A DNA stretch of 20,998 nt. Origin: a virus. Numbering within the stretch: the first letter of the stretch is position 1; each line of letters starts with the position of its first letter. The stretch spans positions 1-20,998 of IMG/VR virus record IMGVR_UViG_3300030329_002317; one strand, given 5' to 3'. The notes beneath the pieces are model-generated. The model worked only from the letters and a program-made list of their open reading frames with translations, did not search any database and had not been told where the DNA came from. Shown here piece by piece: positions 1,534 to 15,315 of the stretch. The translations under genes and the position numbers were made by a program.

Positions 1534-4500
1534 TTACCTTCCATGAACTTGCTCCATGTAATAATCATTAAGAGTTCTTTCTTTATCTATATCTGTATTT
1601 AATAAAGAATCAATATAGTTCTTGTTTTCATCCCAATGTTCTAATATTTTATTTACTCTAGAATCTTCGTTTTTATAATCATATACTGGTATTTGATCTT
1701 CGTTTCCTAAAATATTATATATTATAAATTGTTGTTGATTTTTATTTAATTTTTTAATTTCTTTTCCTTTATCAATCCTTATAACTTCTTTCTCTGTTTC
1801 TACTCCGTATTTTTGTTTTTTCTTTTCTAATTTTTTTTCTTCTTTTACTTTAGTTTTAACTTTCTCAACTTTCTCTTCAGCAATTCCACCGCCTGCATTT
1901 AAAGTCCATTTATTAAAGCCCATTAACATAGAAATTCTTTGCCAAGTTTCAAAATCACCTGTTGAAGCATCCCGTATATTGTTTACTTTTTTAACTATTC
2001 TATCGGCAGGAATATTAAAAGCCGCAGAAAGAACATTTGCTACAGCTAAATTTGCAGGATTATCTAAATCCCATCCCATTTCTCCCATTACATCTTTATC
2101 ATGTTTATATATTTTACTTGATTGATATATTTTTCTAGCTTTAGATCCTATTGGAGGAGATACATTTAATAAATCTACAACTACATTACCGTAATCAGCA
2201 TTATAGCCCTTTTCTGATTCTTTGAAAAACGTAAAAATACTATTTTTAATAGCAGCTACACTAGAACCACCAGTACCCATACCTCTAAGATAAGAATCGG
2301 CTATAGTATTAATAAATCTATCTTTATGTCTTTCAGCATGTTTCATATCAGCTTCATCTTTACTTTCGTCATCAACAGCAAACATAGCGTTAGTAAGATA
2401 TGAAAATATTACGGATTGTACAAAACCATAGTATAAAGCGCTTGAAATATTTTCCGCCATATTACCTCTATTGTTAGCTATATCTTGTATTCTTCTTTTG
2501 TGTCTTCTAAACATTTGCATTGGTGTATTTGCAAAAGCCAATATAGGTCTACCAAGAACAGAAGCTTGTTGCATTGATATTAAATCAGGTCTAGATGACT
2601 GCTGGGTATATTCCGTCATATCTGTAAAATCTTCCCAAGCTTTCTTTTCAGCTTGTTTTTCTGATAATCCTTGTTTTTTATATTTTCTAATACTATTTCT
2701 ATAATATGTAGCGCCACCTATAGAAATTGCAAAACTATCTGCGTATTTTGTAGGTATAAATCCTTTTTCAAGTAAATATTTTAATGCTGCAGATGCCTTG
2801 TCTTTACTTCCACCAACTCTTTCTACTAGTTCAGCTGCTTCAATATTTATCTTTAATCCAGCTCTTCTTTGAACCATCATATCTGAATTAAATATTTTAG
2901 CAAAGTCTTTCCAATATTGAGGTTGATTAGCAAATGCTCTAGCTGCTCTAATAGGATTGTTAAATGTACCATTCACATAATTTGCTGTAGATATAAGTTG
3001 GAGAGCTGCAGATTTTTGATTGAAAAACATAATTGTTCCAGTAGCATTATTTACCCAGTTCATCCATTTGTTTACATTAGAATCTACACCAACATTTCTG
3101 TTAGTCATATTTTCCATTCTCCATATTATATTCTCTAATGCTTCTCGATGTCTAACTCCATATAAAGCCTCTATCTTGTTCATGTTCTTTCCAGTTAGCT
3201 TTCCATTCTTCCACTTACCAAACATAGCTTCTCTATTCTGCATGAACTCAGATAAAGCTTCTTTTCTATATACTTTATCTACAACATTATTAAGATCCAT
3301 AGTTATATTACTTCCCAACCAATTTTCTCCTGGTTTTATCCAGCCTTCTTTTAATTTAGTTATAGAAAATAACTTATCAGCAAAAGCCATAATATCTGCG
3401 TTTGATTTTACAAATTTATCTAATGTTTTTAAATCTCTCTTAGATAATCCAGGTATCTCGTATCCTGCTTTATTCATTAAATAAGCTCTTATAGCATGAT
3501 CAGTTGTGTAAAAACGATCTTCTTTTAGTTTTTTATTTAATACTTTTCTTACTTCTGGAAATTGTTTTCTCAATTCTTTGTAATCGTTTGATATAGATTG
3601 TTTTCTATTATGTATATCGTTATACGCTCTATTATAAGGTTTATGTAAAACTTCTTCAAAGAATTTTTTATGAGCTTCTCCTTTTTTTCCTTTACCTGAA
3701 AAAGCATAAGTTACTAACCCCATGAAATCTTCAGAACCAGGAGTTCCCCATAATTTCAAATGTTTTAATCTATTACCTAATATTCTAGCTTTTGCAGCAC
3801 TGTATGTTTTATGGGCGTTTACATTTTTTTTATGTTCAATAGCTTTGTTTAAAGTTTTACCTAAATCTACAAAAGGATCGTATTCATTAAGCATTTTTTC
3901 AAGATTAGCTTCAATATTCTTTGAAGATTTACTTTGAGGTCCAGCTTGCTGCACTTTAGATTTTATATCTAATTGATTTAAAACATCTTTTACCGCTCTA
4001 ACATTAGCTAATGCATCATCCGCGAAGTACATATCATTATATCCTTCTGAGAACTTTCTTAACATCCACATTGCTTTAGCTTCACCAGTACTATTTCCTA
4101 ATCCTTTAATATTTTGCAAAGGAATTTCAATTCCTTGAGATTTAAGGAATTCATATATAGGAACTTGAGATTCTGGTGGTCTAGCCGTTAATATATATTG
4201 ATGTTCTGGTCCAAATTTCTTAATTCTTTGTGCAAATTTACTCCAAAAAGGTCCTTTAGTACCCTCTTTAACGATATTAAATTCTGAAAAATCGAATTCA
4301 GCTCCTTGATCTTTTAATTTTTTACCTTTATCAGCAAATTCACCAGCGTTTAATCTAGCTTTTATATATCCTTTAGTAAAAGCATCAATCTTTTTAATTA
4401 AATCAAGTGGCATATTATCGCCTTGTTTTAATTTATCAGTATTAACTTCAGCGAAACGATCACCAAATATCTTTTTGAAAGATTTTTTATTGCTCATTAC

Positions 4501-7500
4501 TTTTTCCCAAGTATTTTTTACTATAGATGTTTTGAGAGATCTTTCTGGTCTAGCCTTATTTCTAGCAATAGAAATATCTAAAGATGTTTCAACAAACAAC
4601 ATTTGAGCATCGTAACCCTTGTCTGTAAACTCCTTAACAAGTTTTTCTATTGATTTTATATTAGCTCCAGTTCCATCTACAATAACTCCATCTCCTTTTC
4701 CTTGAAATTTCATTTGTTTCTTTAAAGCTATCTGTCTAGCTTCCCATGTTAATTTTCCAAAAGTTTTTCTTTGTTGTGGAGTGAAATCTTTCATACTAGA
4801 AGGTAGACCATGATTTTTCATTAACCATTCTAAAGATATGTCTTGATTAACTATTTTAAAACCTTGTTTTTCTAAACCTAATTGTTTTATAACATTAGAT
4901 TTTCCAGATCCAGCACCTCCAGCCATAAATATAACTTTCTTTTGGGGAGCTGGTTTTCCAGATGGATTAGGCAAAGTATAACGAACTCCAGATTTTGTAT
5001 ATGCTAAAGTATCATCAAAATCCCAAGTGCTCATTCCTCTAGCTTTTTTATTTATTTTTCTACCTAAATTATTAGCTAAATCTATAATTCCTAAATTTTC
5101 CAAAGTTTCTTTACTACTTATACCTTTAGAATATTTTCCTCCTAGTTGATTATCTAGTATTTTATTTAAATTATTTTTTACCTCTATATTAGTTTCTTTG
5201 TTTTTAGCATCAACTTTTAATTTTGCAATTTCACCAGTATATGATTCTGGAGTTTTAGACTTAAAGAAATCTATAATATCTAATATATCGTTTTTGTTAT
5301 AAGTTTTTATTAATCTAGATCCTATAGTTTCTCCTGGTATTTTTGATTTTAAATCAACCATTTCAAAAGTTATACCAGGTCTATACATTATATTAGCTAT
5401 AGATGAAAGTTCACCAAGGTTTCTATTTTTAAAATATTCTATAAAACCAGTTTTACCACCATAAAGAGGCGAGTCATATATTTTAACATCTTCATATCTA
5501 GTACTAGCCTGCTCAAATTCTCTACTTAGTATATCTAAACTCTTATCAAACTCACTTTTGCTTTTAGATTTAAGAGCCATGTCCATAAACATATAAGTGT
5601 GATTTAACAACTGAAGCTGGTGCTCAGCATGAAACATTGAACCTTTGTTACCTTCAAACTTCTCAAGTCCTAATCTATTACTAACAGACGTTATTGTGGC
5701 TGTTCCTTTTACTATTCCTAAACCTATATTAGTTTGAGATCTTAAATGTCTCATAACTTCTACAATAGTTTCAGCCTTGTTAAGCTCACCTTTTTTAACA
5801 TTAGATGATTTAGCCTCAACAATTACATCTCTTAACGTGTTTAAGTAAATCTTTCTTAATCCTTCATTTGCTTTTAAAGTATTCTCGTATCCTTTGCTAG
5901 TGCCATCTTTAGATAACTCGGCTCTACTAGCATGGTATAAATCTGTTTCAAGATTTTTACCTTTATAGTTTTCAATAAATTCTGCTTGCCATGTTTTAAA
6001 TTTTCCAGTATCTGTAATTTTATAATTATCTAAAACAAATTTAACAGATAGCTTTTCTTTACCTACTTTAATTAAGGTTTTTGAAGCATCACCTTTTTGT
6101 GTAGATTTAATTACTTTATCAGTGTTAACTCTAGCATCTGCAGAGGTGGAATTAATCCATATTCCATCTACTTGTTTACCTTTATATATACCTTTAATTT
6201 CAGGTATCCATATTTTGTAGCTTCTTGACCCAAATCCAAATGTCTTTTTTATATCAGCGGCTATTCCTTCGTATCTATTATTTTTACTTATACCAATATC
6301 TATACCTTTCTCTAAAAATTTTATTAATAATTTTTCTTGTAGTTTTTCTCTAGATTTTATAGCATCTTCACTTTTGTATATAGATTTTTCTCCATCAGCA
6401 AATTCTTTACCGTCATATTTTTTAATTAACTCTTTAGTTGTAGCATCTAAATTTAATTTCTTTAAATTTGATGGTTTAAATATTTGGCTTGATAAGTCAG
6501 CCCAATTTTTGGCTTCTAATACTTTCATCTCAACTTCAGGTTGTGCCCTTAGCATTTCTTTTATTTGAAAGTCAATATTTTCTTTTAAAACCTCACTGTT
6601 TTTAGAGATTCTTCTTTGTAACTCTTGAATTACAGCGTGATCCTTATTTATATTTGGAATTTTTACAAGTATATCTCTTAAATGACCTATAGATATAGGA
6701 CCAACTATATCTTCGAAATAATTAGTCATTTCGTTCAAATACTCCATAGTCATACGCTTACTAAACATTTCCTTTGGCATAGAAGATTTAACACTATTAA
6801 GAAACGTATTAACAACATCTTTAGATACAAATTCTTCAGATAATCCATACTCTTCATATAGTTTATCTAATTCTTTTTGAGATTTTTTAAGTTCTGTTTC
6901 TATATTTTCTTTTTCTCTAGTAGATTTTAAATCTGTTTTGTTTTGCAAGGACTTAAGTAAAGATTGTTTTTTACTTATATCATCTAAAATAGTATTCTTT
7001 TTGTCTCCAAATTCAATAACATGCTCTCTTACGGTTTGGTTACTTAATACTTTTAATAATTCTCCTTCGAAAGCATTTAAAGTTTTTATATTAACGTCTC
7101 CAGGTTTTCTTACTTGCGTTTTCATCCTAGATATATTAATCTTTCCATCAATTATATCTACTCCTAACTTATTTAAAACCCAAATGTCACTGTCTTTTAA
7201 TTCTATTTTTCTACCGTCTCTTAATTCTACTTCAATCTTATTTTTATTTTGCGGTAAATCTATTTTTATTTGCTCTTTAGGACCAGCGGCTTTTCCAGTT
7301 TCTTTAAAAGATAATCTTTCTCCAGTTTTAAAGAATTTACCTAAAATAAGAGGGTCAATTAAAGTAGAAATTCCCTCTATCTCTGGTACTCCAGTTTTCA
7401 ACATCACGCTTTTTCTTATACCGTGTATATACGCTTTTGATGGGCCTATTTCAATAAGACCTTCAATTTTATTTTCAACTGTCTTTTTAAAATCTACTTT

Positions 7501-10500
7501 TCCAGTTTTTGGACCTTTTTTATGTAATTCTGTTTTTCCTAAGAAATCTTTACCTTTTATTGGTGCTAAATTACTTAACGTTGATGCGTTTTGTTTAGGT
7601 TGATTATTTAAACCTTTAAAGTTATTAATAATTTCATTTACTACACTATTCTCCACCCAAGATCTAGTAGATACCTTTCCATCTTTAACAGTTTGTTTTA
7701 TTAAAACATCAGATAAACGCTTACCAGTATTAGTAGTTTCTGTGGTTACATTTAAATTACTTTCTCCTGATGATTTAAAAGAATCTGGTAGGTTTTCTAT
7801 TTTAGACCACTCTGCTGTTGTTTTTTCTTTACTAAACTCACCTACTTTAGCTTCTCTAAATATACCTTCTACTCTTTTAGGTAGATTCTGCATTATATAT
7901 TGTGTAAGAGGAGTTCCTGCAGAAGGATTATAAGCTGCTTTGAACTCGACTTTTTTACCTGCAACAGGAAAAATCATTTCGTGAACAGTTAATTGTAAAT
8001 CTTGCTTAAAATCTGCCTGTTCATATGTCTGTTCTGGATTTAATTTATCATATTCTTTACTTCTCCATTTACCTAATTTGTTACTATTAGATCTTGGACT
8101 AGCTATCATATTAATAAATGTATCCATTTCTTTTAAAATAGCCTCTGATCTATCATTTTTACTTAATTTTGTATTTTCGTATATAGCTTGAACTTTGTCA
8201 GATCGTTCTTGTAATATCTCTTCTTTTGTTTTAATAGGTTTTTTAGCCCTAATTAAAGATTGTATCTCTGTCCATCTACGAGTTAAAGGAGCGTTTAAAT
8301 CTTGATACTGTTCAGTGGTAATTATTTTATTATTAACGTCTTCTAAATTTTGTCTTAGAGCTTTAGCTATTTCTTTTTGTTCTTTTATTATTTCAGGTTT
8401 TGTATTGATAATAATATCAGTAACAGTGCCTTTACTTGACTTACCACCCCCTTTAGTTATAATAGGTCCTACATCTTGCTTTTGAGTTATAAAGCTACCG
8501 TCTCCACTTATTTCCATGTCCTTAAACATTTCCATAAATCTGTCTTTCTGTTTCTTACTGTACCCAGCATTTCCCCAATTCTGCCCCATCATGTACATAT
8601 GCTCTATGACTTTTTGTGGTGAACTTAGATCTAATTTAGGAGCTAAGGCATCAAAATTAATTCCCATAAAGTTAGTACCAGCGAATAAATTAGTACGTAA
8701 TGAGTTTAAATCTCGCTTCAAAGCCCCCATAAATCCTTGCTCGATAAAAATATTATGTCCAACTTCAGTCATCATTAACTCTAAAAGATTAGCGTTATAT
8801 TCTTCGTTAAAATCTTTTCTATCTTGGCTTTTCTTATATGCTTGTTCTACAGCTATTTCAAGTTTTGTTAATTCTCTTTCTGTTTTTACATAACCAGCTT
8901 CTTTAGATGATTTTGCGTCATATTCACCTGCTTTAGGATGTGGTTTACCATCTTTAGTTTTTACGGGGAAGTAAATAGGTTTATTTCCTTTAGCGTCTGG
9001 TCCTAATCCTTTCTGAAGTCCTATAAATTTACCGTTAGCATCGTAAGTCGGCTTACCACCAAGTTTACTCATTATAGTCTCCCTTAAAGATTCGTGAAGT
9101 GATTCATTCATTTTTTCTAAATACTCTTGGGATTTACCTTTGTTGCCTTTTTTAAGAAAGTATCGATACATTAATACATGATATATTTCATGTGGCATAG
9201 TACCTGGTTTTGCCTTTCTTAGATCAACTATAACTTTAGTTGGTGTTGTGCCTTCACCTAATATAACTTTAGCAGGATCTCCTTTTAAATTTTCTACTAC
9301 ACCATTATTATCCCATTTTCCGTTTTTAGTCCAAACTATTTCAAAAGGATCTTCGCTTAAATTTTCTTTTTTTCTAACTTGCTGTATAAATCTTTTATAT
9401 CTTCTATCTTCAGTTTTATGTAAAACGTCAATATTTAAATACCGTTGTGCGTTAGTTATGACGTTGACTTGAGCCTCTGCCATATTTGCTAATTCTTCGT
9501 ACTTATGAACTTCACTCCAATTTGTCTTTTCTTTATCTATAGGCTTCTCTGACCATGTGTCTTGATATCCTTTTTCATGAGGTTTTTTACCATTAACATC
9601 TTTTACTTTTCTTTGTTTGCCTTCTTTGTATACTATTTGATCATTTGCTAATTTTCTCCATTTTGCTATTGCTTTTCTTTTAGATGTTAAAGTAAACTTA
9701 CCATCCACCGCTTTAACATGTGTTAGACCAAGAGCACCAAATTGTATAACCTCTAATAACACATCATCTCCCCACTCGTCCCAATCATGATAATGCTCGT
9801 CTAAAAAGGTAGTAAAAGCCTTTCTTCCTCTCATGTCTTCTATTCCTGCACTAACGATACTCGCTACTTGTGATCCAGCCGCACCTCCAAGACCAGCAAG
9901 AACGCCCTTTTCAAACAAATAGTTAAACGTTGGAGCTATACCCTCTCCCCATGCTGTTACACTACCAAGTCCTGTCCAAGCTGTTTCTCTACCTGCCCAT
10001 CTACCTGCTGTTATACCCATTCCTTGCGCTGTAAATCTAAAAGGTGTCAACCATCTCATAGCACTACCACCTAAATAAAATCCAAATCCAGTTCCATGTC
10101 CCATATCTATACCGAACAATGGATTCATTAATTGCATTTTACCTTCTTCTATACCAGCGTTTATAAATAAAGCGCCCGCTCTTTGTAGTTTTTTACCTTG
10201 TATTAATTTTAGATTTTTACCTAGTTTAGATGTTTTTAACCACTGTTTAGGTGACATACCTGCTGCTTTAGCATATTTTAACACCTGCGCATGAGAAATA
10301 GCGTTTTTTGAATGCCTATAACCTTTTCCTACATTTACAGCTTTATACATTTTAGTACTCATATTAGATAATCTATGAGAAAAAGATGTAAACGCCGGTA
10401 TTTTATATGTTCCTCCAAAAGCCTTAACGGTTTTCGCTCCCCAACCTATTCTCATAGCTCCATTAACATAACCATTCAATATTGCAAATTCAGCTACCAT

Positions 10501-13236
10501 TGGAGTTAAAGATCCTCCAGTATAAGAAAACTTTTCCCAAAAATTCATTTCCATGTTTTCTTTCATTGTACCTGTTAATGGAAATTGATGTAATGGGAAA
10601 TCGTGTCCTTCTGTTTCTGGATCGTCTTGGAATAATGTTTGAATAGTATTATCTATATCTTGATATACTTCAGAAGCCATATTTAATTGATCAGGAATAT
10701 CGTGCGAAAATTGATCTGCTTGAGCCTCTAAAGTTTGTTCTGTTCCAGCACCAACATCAACCCCTGGAATAACGTTAATAATATTAGCCATAGGTCTAGA
10801 AGTTGTTTGTGTAGCTCCTTTGTCAAATAAATCAGATTTTTCTGACCCTCCTTTTAAAGTACCAGCGTCTATATTTAAATACATCATTTCTGTTATAACG
10901 CCAGATTCTATTGCTAAGTCTCTATTTTCTACTCTAGTACCATTTAACTGTCTCATTAAAAACGAAAAAGCAGGACTGGCTTGACCTTTCCATTCTTTAT
11001 CGTCTAAATACATACTCCATTTTCCAGTCCCAAGTTTTTTACCATCTGCAAACATCATGTCTTTAGTGAATCTTTGGTCTTCTATACCTGTAATAGATTC
11101 TAAATACTCATCATCTCCAAAAAGAGGTATTGTTTTTGCATCCATGTGATGTAACTCTCCACCATCCAAATTTAACATATGCATTCTATGTATACTTATC
11201 TCAGGAATTTCAAATCCATCAACAAAACCTAGAACATATGTATTTTTATCTTTATTCTCATGATCTTCTAATTCTTGAAAAACTCCTTTTTTAACAAGAT
11301 ATTTCCAAGTAGCACTATTAGGATCTTTAGGAGTTAAGAATATAGTAGACATAGTTACATGTCCTCCCATTTGTCCTTTAATCTTTACCGCTCTTTTTTG
11401 CTTTGATATACCCGTATGCACGTCGACAAGTTCATTTAAACTAAACTCCTTACCTTTATTATCTTTCCAAAGAACTTGTGTAGGTTGTATTATACTACCA
11501 TCTCTTAAATTTAAAGTTCTAAAAAGATTTTCCCAACCAGTAAAATTATGTCCACCTAAATCAGCTAAAACACTATGCCCCTCTCCGGCCTCAGCTATCC
11601 AACCACCTTTAATATTTCTTTTTACCCAATTATCATTACTTAAATCAAACTTGATTTTCCAACTATTCCTTTTTGTTGTTTGTTGAAAATGATTTTCTCT
11701 TAATAAAAATAAATCTATATACGGTTGTAACGCGTCTTGATTATTTGTTGCTTCCCCACGAAAATTAATAAGATTACGTATGTACGTTTGCTTTAAAGCT
11801 TCTCTTTCCACATTAGCATCAGTAATATTACCTTTTTCTTCTTGTTCTGAAATTTTTCTTGGAGACCAATCACTAACGTCAACTTTATTTCCAAATCTAT
11901 CAAACATCATTGACCCGTTACCATTTTTAGACGTATAACTATTGAACAGTTTTTTATAATTCTTTTCTACATTTTCAAATTTTGTTCGTTTATTTTTATA
12001 ATCATCACTACTTTTATCACCTGTATAGTTGTCTAATTCATATCCTAACCTTACATATTCTTGCCCTGCTTTTCTTAATTCTTCTTCTTTTGATCCAGCT
12101 TTAATTTGTTTTTCAATAAAATTCTTTTCTAAACCGTTAAGTAAAATAGTGGTTTTATTTTCTCCTTCTGATTCTAAATGTTTAGATAACTCTCCAGCCC
12201 AAAGAAAAGTCGTTGCATTTTTCTCAGATAACTGCATGTTTGCCCAAGCATCTTTCCATATTTTATCTAACTTGCTTAATGATAAACCTGTGCTTTTTGG
12301 ATTTATATTTAATTGCGTAAATACTTCATCTCTTATATCAGCTTCATATTTCACATATGTAGTTGCTATAGTACTCATAGGATTGGTCTCCTCGTTTGTT
12401 ACCATGGTACCAGGTCCTGTTTTTGAGTTTATAACATTTACCGCGATATCTAGTGTATTATTTTCTATTCTTTGTTGAGTTCTTTCTTCATTGTTTTTAA
12501 TAACGTTAATTTCTTTTTTAGTTTTAGAATTTGCGTTAATAAACTCTCTAATACTATATTCTGACAGCTTGTCTCCAGTTAATATTTCTCCGTTTGGAGC
12601 CTCTATAATCAATATTTCTCCTGATCCTCCAGTTGAAAATGAAAATCCAGTTTCTTTAGGAAATTTTTCTCTTAACTCTCTAACAATACCTGCTTTATCA
12701 TTTGCTTTGCTTCCTATACCTAAAAAACCCCCATCATCATAAGATTTATTATCAAAATCTTTTATATCTCCAACTTTATAACTTGGTTTTTCAGAAAATT
12801 CTCCTTGTCCTTTTTGAGAGTCTATATATGATTTTATTTCCCCATAAATCTTTTCGTTTTCTTCTTGAGAAAAAGCTAAATTAAATTTCTTTCCTTCGCC
12901 AGATTTTTGATTACCAATAAGAACCTCTACAGTATCACGTCCTATTTCTGCTTCTTCAAACCTAATATCACTATCTTTATAACTGTTATTAAGAAACGAA
13001 ACAACTCTTTCCTCTTGTTTAAAGTAAGAATCAGAAGCATTTAAAAACAATTTAGTAGCAGGATGTATAATAGACATTCCAGGCACAACACCTGGTAAAT
13101 CACCAACTATTTGTGATGTTGATAAAGTTATTCCTTCATTAGAAATAAACTCATCAAAATCCATTTCTAGATCTAAAGCCATTTGTCTAAGCTCTTCTTC
13201 AGTATATATTTTTCCGTTATAATTATACTCTCTCAT
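1534..13236 (-). CDS. Giant 3900-residue multidomain phage protein, probably virion-packaged
   Basis: The product is a single uninterrupted 3900-residue chain. The N-terminus (NGKIYTEEELRQMA, then MDFDEF) looks like a short motif that starts large proteins of marine Bacteroidota phages. A Gly/Ala/aromatic-rich hydrophobic part lies at about 905-1140. A metallopeptidase signature HEIYH is at 1349-1353. A coiled coil is likely at about 2085-2135. A HAD phosphatase with an inserted P-loop kinase spans about 2735-3095. The C-terminal region (about 3390-3780) has blocks I associate with large polyvalent phage proteins (QQSSRPDLISMQQAS; GRPILAFANTPMQMFRRHK; WQRISMLMGFNKW). A Lys/Glu-rich stretch at about 3785-3810 precedes the last, Asn-rich part. 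Size, domain mixture and position after the tail genes suggest a protein packaged in the virion and ejected with DNA, as for phage N4 virion RNA polymerase or DarB-type proteins; this is inference. ATG 13236 is the first start after an in-frame stop 21 bases upstream. Confidence 0.9.
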   Translation of the reverse strand: MREYNYNGKIYTEEELRQMALDLEMDFDEFISNEGITLSTSQIVGDLPGVVPGMSIIHPATKLFLNASDSYFKQEERVVSFLNNSYKDSDIRFEEAEIGRDTVEVLIGNQKSGEGKKFNLAFSQEENEKIYGEIKSYIDSQKGQGEFSEKPSYKVGDIKDFDNKSYDDGGFLGIGSKANDKAGIVRELREKFPKETGFSFSTGGSGEILIIEAPNGEILTGDKLSEYSIREFINANSKTKKEINVIKNNEERTQQRIENNTLDIAVNVINSKTGPGTMVTNEETNPMSTIATTYVKYEADIRDEVFTQLNINPKSTGLSLSKLDKIWKDAWANMQLSEKNATTFLWAGELSKHLESEGENKTTILLNGLEKNFIEKQIKAGSKEEELRKAGQEYVRLGYELDNYTGDKSSDDYKNKRTKFENVEKNYKKLFNSYTSKNGNGSMMFDRFGNKVDVSDWSPRKISEQEEKGNITDANVEREALKQTYIRNLINFRGEATNNQDALQPYIDLFLLRENHFQQTTKRNSWKIKFDLSNDNWVKRNIKGGWIAEAGEGHSVLADLGGHNFTGWENLFRTLNLRDGSIIQPTQVLWKDNKGKEFSLNELVDVHTGISKQKRAVKIKGQMGGHVTMSTIFLTPKDPNSATWKYLVKKGVFQELEDHENKDKNTYVLGFVDGFEIPEISIHRMHMLNLDGGELHHMDAKTIPLFGDDEYLESITGIEDQRFTKDMMFADGKKLGTGKWSMYLDDKEWKGQASPAFSFLMRQLNGTRVENRDLAIESGVITEMMYLNIDAGTLKGGSEKSDLFDKGATQTTSRPMANIINVIPGVDVGAGTEQTLEAQADQFSHDIPDQLNMASEVYQDIDNTIQTLFQDDPETEGHDFPLHQFPLTGTMKENMEMNFWEKFSYTGGSLTPMVAEFAILNGYVNGAMRIGWGAKTVKAFGGTYKIPAFTSFSHRLSNMSTKMYKAVNVGKGYRHSKNAISHAQVLKYAKAAGMSPKQWLKTSKLGKNLKLIQGKKLQRAGALFINAGIEEGKMQLMNPLFGIDMGHGTGFGFYLGGSAMRWLTPFRFTAQGMGITAGRWAGRETAWTGLGSVTAWGEGIAPTFNYLFEKGVLAGLGGAAGSQVASIVSAGIEDMRGRKAFTTFLDEHYHDWDEWGDDVLLEVIQFGALGLTHVKAVDGKFTLTSKRKAIAKWRKLANDQIVYKEGKQRKVKDVNGKKPHEKGYQDTWSEKPIDKEKTNWSEVHKYEELANMAEAQVNVITNAQRYLNIDVLHKTEDRRYKRFIQQVRKKENLSEDPFEIVWTKNGKWDNNGVVENLKGDPAKVILGEGTTPTKVIVDLRKAKPGTMPHEIYHVLMYRYFLKKGNKGKSQEYLEKMNESLHESLRETIMSKLGGKPTYDANGKFIGLQKGLGPDAKGNKPIYFPVKTKDGKPHPKAGEYDAKSSKEAGYVKTERELTKLEIAVEQAYKKSQDRKDFNEEYNANLLELMMTEVGHNIFIEQGFMGALKRDLNSLRTNLFAGTNFMGINFDALAPKLDLSSPQKVIEHMYMMGQNWGNAGYSKKQKDRFMEMFKDMEISGDGSFITQKQDVGPIITKGGGKSSKGTVTDIIINTKPEIIKEQKEIAKALRQNLEDVNNKIITTEQYQDLNAPLTRRWTEIQSLIRAKKPIKTKEEILQERSDKVQAIYENTKLSKNDRSEAILKEMDTFINMIASPRSNSNKLGKWRSKEYDKLNPEQTYEQADFKQDLQLTVHEMIFPVAGKKVEFKAAYNPSAGTPLTQYIMQNLPKRVEGIFREAKVGEFSKEKTTAEWSKIENLPDSFKSSGESNLNVTTETTNTGKRLSDVLIKQTVKDGKVSTRSWVENSVVNEIINNFKGLNNQPKQNASTLSNLAPIKGKDFLGKTELHKKGPKTGKVDFKKTVENKIEGLIEIGPSKAYIHGIRKSVMLKTGVPEIEGISTLIDPLILGKFFKTGERLSFKETGKAAGPKEQIKIDLPQNKNKIEVELRDGRKIELKDSDIWVLNKLGVDIIDGKINISRMKTQVRKPGDVNIKTLNAFEGELLKVLSNQTVREHVIEFGDKKNTILDDISKKQSLLKSLQNKTDLKSTREKENIETELKKSQKELDKLYEEYGLSEEFVSKDVVNTFLNSVKSSMPKEMFSKRMTMEYLNEMTNYFEDIVGPISIGHLRDILVKIPNINKDHAVIQELQRRISKNSEVLKENIDFQIKEMLRAQPEVEMKVLEAKNWADLSSQIFKPSNLKKLNLDATTKELIKKYDGKEFADGEKSIYKSEDAIKSREKLQEKLLIKFLEKGIDIGISKNNRYEGIAADIKKTFGFGSRSYKIWIPEIKGIYKGKQVDGIWINSTSADARVNTDKVIKSTQKGDASKTLIKVGKEKLSVKFVLDNYKITDTGKFKTWQAEFIENYKGKNLETDLYHASRAELSKDGTSKGYENTLKANEGLRKIYLNTLRDVIVEAKSSNVKKGELNKAETIVEVMRHLRSQTNIGLGIVKGTATITSVSNRLGLEKFEGNKGSMFHAEHQLQLLNHTYMFMDMALKSKSKSEFDKSLDILSREFEQASTRYEDVKIYDSPLYGGKTGFIEYFKNRNLGELSSIANIMYRPGITFEMVDLKSKIPGETIGSRLIKTYNKNDILDIIDFFKSKTPESYTGEIAKLKVDAKNKETNIEVKNNLNKILDNQLGGKYSKGISSKETLENLGIIDLANNLGRKINKKARGMSTWDFDDTLAYTKSGVRYTLPNPSGKPAPQKKVIFMAGGAGSGKSNVIKQLGLEKQGFKIVNQDISLEWLMKNHGLPSSMKDFTPQQRKTFGKLTWEARQIALKKQMKFQGKGDGVIVDGTGANIKSIEKLVKEFTDKGYDAQMLFVETSLDISIARNKARPERSLKTSIVKNTWEKVMSNKKSFKKIFGDRFAEVNTDKLKQGDNMPLDLIKKIDAFTKGYIKARLNAGEFADKGKKLKDQGAEFDFSEFNIVKEGTKGPFWSKFAQRIKKFGPEHQYILTARPPESQVPIYEFLKSQGIEIPLQNIKGLGNSTGEAKAMWMLRKFSEGYNDMYFADDALANVRAVKDVLNQLDIKSKVQQAGPQSKSSKNIEANLEKMLNEYDPFVDLGKTLNKAIEHKKNVNAHKTYSAAKARILGNRLKHLKLWGTPGSEDFMGLVTYAFSGKGKKGEAHKKFFEEVLHKPYNRAYNDIHNRKQSISNDYKELRKQFPEVRKVLNKKLKEDRFYTTDHAIRAYLMNKAGYEIPGLSKRDLKTLDKFVKSNADIMAFADKLFSITKLKEGWIKPGENWLGSNITMDLNNVVDKVYRKEALSEFMQNREAMFGKWKNGKLTGKNMNKIEALYGVRHREALENIIWRMENMTNRNVGVDSNVNKWMNWVNNATGTIMFFNQKSAALQLISTANYVNGTFNNPIRAARAFANQPQYWKDFAKIFNSDMMVQRRAGLKINIEAAELVERVGGSKDKASAALKYLLEKGFIPTKYADSFAISIGGATYYRNSIRKYKKQGLSEKQAEKKAWEDFTDMTEYTQQSSRPDLISMQQASVLGRPILAFANTPMQMFRRHKRRIQDIANNRGNMAENISSALYYGFVQSVIFSYLTNAMFAVDDESKDEADMKHAERHKDRFINTIADSYLRGMGTGGSSVAAIKNSIFTFFKESEKGYNADYGNVVVDLLNVSPPIGSKARKIYQSSKIYKHDKDVMGEMGWDLDNPANLAVANVLSAAFNIPADRIVKKVNNIRDASTGDFETWQRISMLMGFNKWTLNAGGGIAEEKVEKVKTKVKEEKKLEKKKQKYGVETEKEVIRIDKGKEIKKLNKNQQQFIIYNILGNEDQIPVYDYKNEDSRVNKILEHWDENKNYIDSLLNTDIDKERTLNDYYMEQVHGR
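1795..1880 (-). other. Lys/Glu-rich low-complexity segment of the giant protein
   Basis: The segment encodes a run dominated by lysine and glutamate (EEKVEKVKTKVK followed by EEKKLEKKKQKYG). It is probably an exposed helix or linker that separates the conserved C-terminal region from the last roughly 90 residues. A nucleic-acid or capsid contact is possible, but the sequence does not show one. Confidence 0.5.
3979..5034 (-). other. HAD phosphatase domain with inserted P-loop kinase (domain of giant protein)
   Basis: HAD motif I, WDFDDTL, has the two catalytic aspartates at D2739 and D2741. Motif II is YILTARP (T3017), motif III is plausibly K3054 (GEAKAMW) and motif IV is YFADDA (D3073, D3074). 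Between motifs I and II lies a zeta-toxin/polynucleotide-kinase-like domain: Walker A GGAGSGKS (2773-2780, K2779), the acidic VNQD motif, VDGTGAN, and an Arg-rich lid-like segment (ARNKARPERS). T4 polynucleotide kinase/phosphatase has the same two activities in tandem (kinase then phosphatase); here the kinase sits at the C1-cap insertion point of the HAD fold. Likely roles are 5'-kinase and 3'-phosphatase on nucleic acid ends, or phosphorylation of a small molecule such as UDP-GlcNAc as in zeta toxins. The substrate cannot be read from the sequence. Confidence 0.75.
8797..9240 (-). other. Putative zinc metallopeptidase domain of the giant protein (HEIYH)
   Basis: After a strand-like KVIVDLRKAKPGT comes MPHEIYHVLMYRYF, a HExxH signature with H1349, E1350 and H1353 in a helix-like context. 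A candidate third zinc ligand is E1478 or E1479 in NEEYNANLLELM, about 126 residues later, where EExxA-like motifs serve in other phage and gluzincin peptidases. The domain could process the giant protein itself, cut host proteins after ejection, or loosen the cell wall. No lytic transglycosylase motif is visible nearby. HExxH can occur by chance, but the preceding hydrophobic strand and the spacing support a true peptidase. Confidence 0.6.
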
Positions 13237-13254: not shown

Positions 13255-14718
13255 TTATTTTTTCCACCAATGTTCACCTCGATTTTTTACGATATATTTT
13301 TCCCCTGATATAGCAGACGCAAGTTCACTAGGGTTCCACTTTGTTCCTGTTGGATAACCTTCTTTATAAAACGTTTCACTACCTGCGCTCCAAATATATC
13401 TTGATCCATTTGGCGCTGTATATATTGAGTTGTTTGCAATGGATTTTTTAATATCGTTACGAGTTGTTGATTTACTAATATAACCTGGTTTGTTCCAAGG
13501 TTGGTTCTCAGATTCAATCTCCTCTTCGTATTCTAAACGATCATCTATTGCATGTTGATTTACTGCTTTAGCTAACTCAAACGTCTCGTCATTTATAATC
13601 GTTTTCATTTCTTCCCAAGAAAAATTATTTTTATTAGCACCTTCTTTCATTAATTCTATTAATGCTACCTTTGAATAACCATCTTCTAATAAACCTGCTA
13701 TTTTTTCTGCAAATTTATCATCGCTTTTAGCGCCTTCATTAATTACCCTATCTATATAACGTTCCGCAAAAGTCGCACCTTCTATATCAAGTCTAAAAAA
13801 AGCATCTTTTATCATTTGAGGAGAATATTTTTCTAAATTATTTTTAAATTCATTAAAAACACGTTGACCTTTTGCACTAGATAAAGTTAATTTTGTGTCT
13901 CCACTTCCTATTTGAACAGCACTACCAAGGATTTGAGTAAACAGTGCGTTATCAACGTTTTTATCGCTAAGATCAGCAAAATACCCTCCTTTTTTCAAAT
14001 CTTTATAGTTAACTAATATATCTTTTGATTTATTATCTTGTTTGATTAAACTATTGTATTCATCTGGAATTTCACCAAGTCCATCCTCATCTCCATTCCA
14101 ATCAATTAAAGAAAGATTAACATACAATTCTTTTCTATTGTTATTTGGGTTTTTTACAAATTCTATTGCTGTTTCTATACTACTATTAGCTAAAGCGTTA
14201 CTAAGTACTCGTTGGTTTGCTGTAGAGTTGCCTGACCATGTAATATATTGTCCATTTTCATATTTTGCACCAATAGCAACTTGCATGAAGTTTGTTTTAT
14301 CGCTTGCAAGATCTTCAAATCCACTGTCTAAAGATTGAACGTCTAAAAGTATTTCCTCTCTTTTTAACTGTAATTCTTTACGTGATTTATTATTTGGAAA
14401 TGTTATATTCCAAGGGTTATTAATTTTTTGATTAATTTTAATTAACTCAGCATAATTTTTTTCTATTTCTTCTCTAATAGATGTATTGTCTTGAATATGT
14501 TGCTTAGAAATTACATTCCCCTTTTCTGTTAACATGCTTGTTCTAGCGTTATCTTGTAATGCGGCTGCTCTAAAATATTGATTCATTGTAAACATACCTA
14601 ATTGTTGTATTGCTCTAGGTAATCCTTCTGACTTTTCAGTTTTTAAACCAGTCATTTCACCTGCTTTACCCATAGCTGCTACATTTATAGCGCTTGTTGT
14701 AGTTACTTTTTTTGCCAT
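13255..14718 (-). CDS. Probable internal virion protein, 487 residues, unknown function
   Basis: The N-terminus (MAKKVTTTSAIN, then AAMGKAGEMTGL) is alanine-, glycine- and threonine-rich with no signal peptide. The rest is charged and mostly helical, with segments such as EEIEKNYAELIKINQKIN (about 85-102). The C-terminus is aromatic and tryptophan-rich (YIWSAGSETFYKEG; GEHWWKK). No enzyme motif or membrane segment is apparent. It lies three bases after the stop of the helical protein gene and 18 bases before the giant gene, between tail-type and giant virion genes. I therefore infer an internal or ejected virion protein, or a partner of the giant protein. The start follows TTTTAAAAT with no Shine-Dalgarno sequence. 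Confidence 0.85.
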   Translation of the reverse strand: MAKKVTTTSAINVAAMGKAGEMTGLKTEKSEGLPRAIQQLGMFTMNQYFRAAALQDNARTSMLTEKGNVISKQHIQDNTSIREEIEKNYAELIKINQKINNPWNITFPNNKSRKELQLKREEILLDVQSLDSGFEDLASDKTNFMQVAIGAKYENGQYITWSGNSTANQRVLSNALANSSIETAIEFVKNPNNNRKELYVNLSLIDWNGDEDGLGEIPDEYNSLIKQDNKSKDILVNYKDLKKGGYFADLSDKNVDNALFTQILGSAVQIGSGDTKLTLSSAKGQRVFNEFKNNLEKYSPQMIKDAFFRLDIEGATFAERYIDRVINEGAKSDDKFAEKIAGLLEDGYSKVALIELMKEGANKNNFSWEEMKTIINDETFELAKAVNQHAIDDRLEYEEEIESENQPWNKPGYISKSTTRNDIKKSIANNSIYTAPNGSRYIWSAGSETFYKEGYPTGTKWNPSELASAISGEKYIVKNRGEHWWKK

Positions 14719-14721
14719 ATT

Positions 14722-15315
14722 TTAAAATAAATTAAATATTTTTTTAAGCCATCCTGTTGTTCTCCAGTCTTCAGTTTTTCCAGCGCCTATTTGACCAGAA
14801 ACTAATGTTAACAAAGCTTGTTGCTGTTGTAATCTTAATGTTTCTGCTTTTTCCTGTCCTTGTATTCTTAACAAGTCAGTTTTAAAATCACCTTCTGCCT
14901 CTGCCATTCTTAACCTAGCACTTTCTTGTGTTTGTCTATTGATATTTGCTGTCTCTTGCTCTTCTATTGATCTTGTTATCTGTCTAGTTTGATCTACTAA
15001 TGCTTTATTAATAGCGCCTGTATCAACTTCACCAACTTCTCTTTGAGTTTGTAAAGCTGTGCCTAACCCTGTCATCAAATCGTCTTGCGCTTGTTCATAA
15101 CCTTTTGTTGCTATAACACCTTCTTCCCAAACGTTTTCCATGTTTGCGTATGGGTTAGTTATACCTGCATAAAGATTTTCAAATGTATTTTTACCAAACT
15201 GATCTTTTAAAACATCAAACTCTTTCATTAAATTTTGAGTTCTACCTGTAGTATAACTTATTCTTTTTAATGGTGGTCCTTTTTTATGAACTAATGGTAT
15301 TATTTTTTTTGCCAT
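14722..15315 (-). CDS. Gln/Ala-rich helical virion-associated protein with NPYANMENVWE motif
   Basis: The 197-residue product has a basic N-terminus (MAKKIIPLVHKKGPPLKR), then the block ITNPYANMENVWEEG (about 52-66), then a long helical region rich in Gln, Glu and Ala (about 75-175), ending in an aromatic tail (WLKKIFNLF). NPYA-MENV-E followed by Gln-rich helices is a pattern I recall from small structural or ejection proteins next to large internal virion proteins in marine podovirus-like genomes. It could form an internal-core or ejection component, comparable in role to T7 core proteins; that comparison is by position and composition only. There is no signal peptide. The C-terminal amphipathic helix might touch a membrane. 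Confidence 0.85.
   Translation of the reverse strand: MAKKIIPLVHKKGPPLKRISYTTGRTQNLMKEFDVLKDQFGKNTFENLYAGITNPYANMENVWEEGVIATKGYEQAQDDLMTGLGTALQTQREVGEVDTGAINKALVDQTRQITRSIEEQETANINRQTQESARLRMAEAEGDFKTDLLRIQGQEKAETLRLQQQQALLTLVSGQIGAGKTEDWRTTGWLKKIFNLF

Follow-up and report, generated by a model that had tools for sequence, protein, structure and literature searches.

A P-loop kinase nested at the cap site of a HAD phosphatase within a giant, presumably ejected, phage protein

What might a complete P-loop kinase do inside a phosphatase, in a protein that a phage may deliver together with its genome? The question is raised by a 20,998-nucleotide stretch of DNA (hereafter the window) from the viral IMG/VR record IMGVR_UViG_3300030329_002317, which is 34,937 bases in full and belongs to a marine phage with relatives among flavobacterial phages. 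The window encodes an open reading frame (ORF) of 3900 amino acids, P0001, and residues 2729–3097 of this giant ORF form a HAD phosphatase module that is interrupted by a kinase. The answer that we favour, and to which we give about an even chance, is a 5′-kinase/3′-phosphatase of polynucleotide kinase/phosphatase (PNKP) type with a nested architecture, carried in a presumed ejection protein and with DNA ends as its likelier substrate. The relevant features are as follows.

1534–13236, minus strand: giant ORF P0001, 3900 amino acids, a presumed internal or ejection virion protein holding the nested HAD/kinase pair
4966–5052, minus strand: HAD first segment, residues 2729–2757, with strand 1, motif I DFDDTL (D2739, D2741) and the first strand of the flap hairpin
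4366–4950, minus strand: inserted P-loop kinase, residues 2763–2957, matching Pfam AAA_33 and Zeta_toxin and phrog_505
3946–4362, minus strand: HAD second segment, residues 2959–3097, with the second hairpin strand and motifs II–IV

The kinase carries a Walker A motif GGAGSGKS at residue 2773 (K2779; P-loop at window positions 4897–4920, with Ser at S2780), a VDGTG(AN) motif (D2854, T2856) and an Arg-rich lid (R2892, R2896, R2899), and D2799 is its candidate base. The later HAD motifs follow as ILTARP (II; T3017, R3019), K3054 (III) and ADD (IV; D3073–D3074). A preliminary description of this DNA, made from its letters, had listed D2739/D2741, GGAGSGKS at 2773, K2779, VDGTGAN, T3017, K3054 and D3073/D3074, and all lie where it placed them. 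Both Pfam matches of the window protein, AAA_33 (1.6e-9) and Zeta_toxin (3.4e-8), exceed their gathering cut-offs and fall in the kinase part, which among PHROGs matches the polynucleotide kinase (PNK) family phrog_505; the HAD part has no Pfam match, probably because it is split, and a scan of NCBIfam gave no match.

Is the nesting a property of this one protein? A scan of IMG/VR with residues 2700–3111 (query P0002, 412 amino acids) and a second with the kinase alone each returned 80 loci, a sampling that favours the nested form, since this was the form used as query. The first scan revealed two forms, with about half of the loci matching the whole 412 amino acids and the rest matching both HAD parts only, these adjoining each other; in the second, 74 of the 80 loci passed the nesting motif test and most of the others were truncated by contig ends. 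The search for homologs with the same order that the preliminary description had proposed yielded 72 distinct nested sequences, in every one of which the kinase follows motif I and precedes motif II, and an assembly artefact or chance ORF is ruled out by this number. Nested relatives of the first set are 55–72% identical to the window. In approximately 40 empty-site relatives, motif I (DFDDT or DFDET) is separated from the second HAD part by 21–24 residues, compared with about 220 in the nested form, and what the kinase replaces is the tip of the hairpin, exemplified by 'LYTTPEGKKGKLNA', of the empty form.

The insertion site was placed more exactly by structure prediction, with a model of the nested form built from 35 sequences (mean predicted local distance difference test score, pLDDT, 81.3; predicted template modelling score, pTM, 0.65) and one of an empty HAD (L039) from 37 sequences (mean pLDDT 82.0, pTM 0.75). 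The secondary structure elements of the two models correspond one to one, with HAD elements on both flanks of the kinase, and the kinase sits between two strands of a hairpin, which are residues 53–57 and 63–67 in the empty model and 51–57 and 258–264 in the nested model. HAD enzymes with a C1 cap carry it at this hairpin after motif I. That the kinase occupies the canonical C1-cap site is firmly supported by this comparison of sequence and predicted secondary structure elements; the nested topology at the cap insertion point, which the preliminary description had read from motif order and had proposed to check by modelling the fold, is in this way borne out by empty-site homologs and models together.

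A third arrangement occurs in two loci, L163 and L164 (around 4001–4573), in which an unbroken HAD is followed about 18 residues on by the same kinase. In a tree built from the HAD columns, the kinase columns being left out, the HADs of these two loci fall in a separate, fully supported part, which suggests that the kinase moves between sites. Because the serial form sits there, the same two domains, as traced in the alignments and tree, have been joined in more than one way, giving nested, empty and serial arrangements. The arrangement labels require 6 changes in total on this tree as against 34.7 in shuffles, and its starred branches require at least two changes for 'nested'.

Outside these sets, a profile of the nested form found no bacterial or prophage homolog among genome contigs. 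A HAD profile found six contigs (L169–L174) of metagenome-assembled genomes, in bins assigned to Maricaulis, Woesearchaeota, Sphingobacteriales and Aliivibrio, which are probably phage contigs within those bins. Matches at ranks 3–4 in BFVD span 387–401 columns at low identity; most likely these are relatives that have only the HAD, aligned across a gap where the kinase would be. In the giant ORFs of three loci (L003, L010 and L060) the final part of the HAD, 'VKKVLDQLDVKSDVQQALASKN', recurs about 430–480 residues beyond the end of the domain, which may reflect an earlier duplication or exchange of the module.

Both active sites appear to be intact. Five HAD residues (D2739, D2741, T2743, T3017 and R3019) and seven kinase residues (K2779, D2799, D2854, T2856, R2892, R2896 and R2899) are found in 72/72 nested sequences, and K3054, D3073 and D3074 are invariant wherever they are not gapped. 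The HAD catalytic residues are also kept in 42 non-nested relatives, one odd row excepted. Non-conserved catalytic residues, which the preliminary description had said would, together with a lack of both activities, speak against its reading, are not what the 72 nested sequences contain, these positions being essentially invariant in both domains. Judged from the alignments, then, the insertion, its exact site and the conservation of both active sites are established.

Which known enzymes do the two halves resemble? The folds and their nearest structures are predicted. With VIA-align, the modelled kinase matches best the Clostridium thermocellum polynucleotide kinase (Z 16.7, 2.8 Å over 166 residues), with bacterial PNKs ranging from 16.3 to 16.7, followed by O-phosphoseryl-tRNA(Sec) kinase (PSTK, 16.1), T4 PNK (14.7–15.0), adenylate kinases (about 14) and zeta (13.6). 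The empty HAD model places the T4 Pnkp 3′-phosphatase first (5uj0, Z 13.2, 2.8 Å over 128 residues), followed by 4xru (Pnkp1, 12.5) and 1ltq (12.4), with other HADs at 10.8 and lower. In PHROGs, all 25 members of phrog_505, which matches the kinase, are named polynucleotide kinase, as are 28 of the 37 members of phrog_415, which matches the HAD; HAD-only relatives match DUF2608 and phrog_415. An hhalign comparison with T4 Pnkp shows weak likeness, which extends from the P-loop to the equivalent of D35 and also takes in motif I; it pairs VNQD of the kinase with INRD of T4, so that equivalents of the Walker A P-loop and of the catalytic Asp (T4 K15 and D35) are present. The likeness of both domains to PNKP that had been proposed is borne out by the fold ranking of kinase and HAD, and two independent lines, this ranking of each half and the fact that the two domains were joined more than once, argue for PNKP-like end healing.

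At the level of sequence, PNKs and zeta-like kinases are not separated, and a zeta-toxin-like effector acting on nucleotide sugars had also been suggested. A broader version of that idea is that the substrate of kinase and phosphatase is a small molecule or sugar nucleotide (as for a zeta-like UDP-GlcNAc kinase, or else a nucleotide or signal molecule), the effect being, for example, to weaken the wall for entry or to destroy a defence signal. The kinase shares the fold of zeta toxin/PezT, its Zeta_toxin score of 33.6 bits stands above the gathering score of 22.3, zeta structures come first by Foldseek (1.4e-7), and a relative in BFVD carries the name UDP-N-acetylglucosamine kinase. Zeta-like kinases have in addition been reported in polyvalent and MuF proteins, with a proposed role in helping injection (PMC5512222). 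By VIA-align, however, the kinase lies about 3 Z units nearer to PNK/PSTK than to zeta, so that the zeta-like part of the earlier suggestion is compatible with the sequence but comes lower in the structural ranking; the HAD that accompanies the kinase has the PNKP phosphatase as its nearest fold; and the neighbouring genes are structural, with no toxin–antitoxin context seen, although an epsilon-like antitoxin was not searched for. We regard action on a small molecule as rather unlikely.

Several observations weigh against a PNKP-type enzyme. Profile comparison with solved PNKPs is weak, the best value for the kinase being 0.006 and the HAD reaching 0.46 to mammalian PNKP, below spurious matches; a plain sequence search of the PDB with P0002 gave nothing useful. 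In the predicted model PNK and PSTK are tied as nearest fold of the kinase (Z gap below 1). Foldseek gave no HAD match for the empty HAD at E ≤ 0.001, and the closeness of the HAD to Pnkp therefore rests on VIA-align. R38 of T4 PNK, the acceptor-binding Arg, seems to correspond by ungapped extension, the alignment itself ending at T4 residue 36, to the invariant Leu103 (P0002 numbering), and because this position seems to be Leu, acceptor binding may differ from that in T4. Many relatives have the HAD but no kinase, and the pair is therefore not obligatory. Lastly, the nested sequences differ at the Walker A serine (S2780), with Ser in 41 of them, Gly in 29 and Thr in two and at least 10 changes on the HAD tree, and Gly is unusual for active P-loop kinases.

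Since this serine is a Mg ligand, its replacement also fits a reading in which the kinase-like insert is mainly a cap or regulatory nucleotide sensor, controlling the HAD through bound ATP or GTP while itself catalysing little or nothing. C1 caps control substrate access in other HADs, and it is this place that the insert fills. Against such a sensor, K80, D100, D155 and T157 in P0002 numbering (K2779, D2799, D2854 and T2856) and the three lid Arg are kept throughout the nested set, and the kinase also exists without being inserted in a HAD, behind one in L163/L164 and on its own in phages HTVC008M and Melnitz. A catalytically silent insert seems to us quite improbable.

A nested PNKP-type enzyme could work as follows. 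A HAD of T4 Pnkp 3′-phosphatase type, with a P-loop kinase from the polynucleotide-kinase/zeta (AAA_33) group in its C1-cap place, would remove 3′-phosphates, D2739 acting as the nucleophile and D2741 as the acid/base, and the kinase would phosphorylate 5′-OH ends by means of K2779 and D2799. Broken nucleic-acid ends would thereby be made ligatable, and in the case of DNA ends the ATP-dependent DNA ligase of the phage itself could then seal them.

Are the ends those of DNA or of tRNA? An ATP-dependent DNA ligase, of about 270–300 amino acids where complete, is encoded in all 15 relative records of at least 58 kb (G001–G010 and G013–G017), nested and empty alike. RtcB was found in 0/27 relative records, which are partial, the control being positive; a search of relative records for Rnl1 (PF09511) gave no match, its control being likewise blank. 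Matches to PF09414 were considered as RNA ligases, and those checked score as ATP-dependent DNA ligase (phrog_114). From the DNA ligase in 15/15, RtcB in 0/27 and the lack of an identified RNA ligase, we infer that the substrate is more likely to be DNA ends than tRNA. Healing of tRNA in the manner of T4 PseT and its RNA ligase, directed against anticodon nucleases, is a more restricted version of the same explanation, with RNA as the substrate. The domain types are the same as in T4 Pnkp and Pnkp1, and in Staphylococcus phage Alsa_2 an annotated RNA ligase includes a distant relative of the kinase as a fusion. The tRNA repair role of T4 Pnkp requires an RNA ligase, though, and the ligase results above make tRNA healing unlikely. 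The proposal of end healing against RNA- or DNA-cleaving defences accordingly survives in its end-healing part, through the PNKP-like character of the domains, while its RNA-repair part is weak.

The literature searched contained no description of a nested PNK–HAD pair, and to our knowledge there is no earlier one, end-healing kinase and phosphatase being known only as neighbours in a chain. The domain types themselves are known, and what appears to be new is the kinase-in-phosphatase architecture for a PNKP-type pair. T4 Pnkp (PseT) and Pnkp1 likewise join a P-loop kinase and a HAD phosphatase in one chain, and the motif I DxDxT, the S/T-x-R motif II, the Lys and the Asp-Asp are kept in the 72 nested and 42 other sequences, gaps and one odd row apart. 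In those enzymes, however, the kinase precedes an unbroken phosphatase, whereas here it lies inside the phosphatase after motif I; serial order is seen only in L163/L164, and there with the phosphatase first. Sequence likeness to T4 Pnkp is very low, and, as noted, the R38 position differs. Because the serial order is absent from it, the module is not classed as a T4-type Pnkp, though it is PNKP-like. The Clostridium thermocellum Pnkp kinase domain and PSTK, the top structural matches of the inserted kinase (Z 16–17), are without a HAD partner and only about 15–21% identical, and the nearest relatives from annotated phages, the kinases of Pelagibacter phage HTVC008M and Methylophilales phage Melnitz (approximately 33–35% identity; hhalign 9e-26), are separate 220-amino acid genes without a HAD. 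With natural empty, nested and serial versions present in related phages, the effect of domain nesting is directly testable. According to a survey of jumbo phages (Iyer et al. 2021, PMC7824862), the phage PNK-HAD usually has a kinase fused at its N terminus.

How might such an enzyme reach the cell? The giant ORF is the last gene in the structural block and is preceded by two further candidates.

9178–9192, minus strand: HEIYH, a zincin-like HExxH motif at residues 1349–1353 of the giant ORF (motif only)
13255–14718, minus strand: 487-amino acid ORF that precedes the giant ORF, a candidate gp15-like ejection protein by order and size
14722–15315, minus strand: 197-amino acid ORF, a gp14-like ejection protein candidate by order and size

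Neither of the two smaller ORFs has a PHROG match; both correspond in size and order to podophage ejection proteins, T7 gp14 having 196 amino acids (PMC8954989). The terminase is 64% identical to that of the uncultured podovirus MW202828 and 47% identical to those of Flavobacterium phages of the elemo group, and on this likeness the host is probably a member of the Bacteroidota. The structural block also ends with a giant protein in MW202828 (3859 amino acids) and in Flavobacterium phage elemoF_6-3D (gp18, 3694 amino acids, annotated 'structural protein'); HExxH is present twice in the former and also in the latter, and BLASTP found no shared sequence between the window ORF and either protein. 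A giant multidomain protein that closes the virion gene block and carries HExxH resembles polyvalent and podophage ejection proteins such as DarB, N4 vRNAP and T7 gp16; zeta-like kinases are reported in polyvalent proteins, but the words 'phosphatase' and 'polynucleotide kinase' are absent from the text of that survey (PMC5512222). Because gene order and the sizes of the 197- and 487-amino acid ORFs fit podophage ejection proteins, and with the annotation of the elemo gp18, the giant protein is presumed to be packaged and ejected with the genome. As it would probably travel with the genome, it could be active during entry, ahead of any phage gene expression, and, if packaged, it would constitute a virion-delivered end-repair enzyme and a way to undo nuclease defence at that stage. 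The broader picture, that widespread marine, probably flavobacterial, podophages inject an end-healing enzyme made of a 3′-phosphatase capped by a polynucleotide kinase, one interlocked unit handling both ends of a break before gene expression, is offered tentatively, as possible but doubtful.

Two smaller observations concern the surroundings of the module. The tail gene adjoining the window edge (L082, 41–1912) has an XXXX run near its end, likely an assembly gap. Among the giant ORFs (68 proteins), the linker-like motif [KRQN][FY]SK[STNAGD] occurs 50 times, where shuffled sequences give about 10, and many copies adjoin the HAD module, the window copy lying at residue 2701; it is perhaps a linker or processing site.

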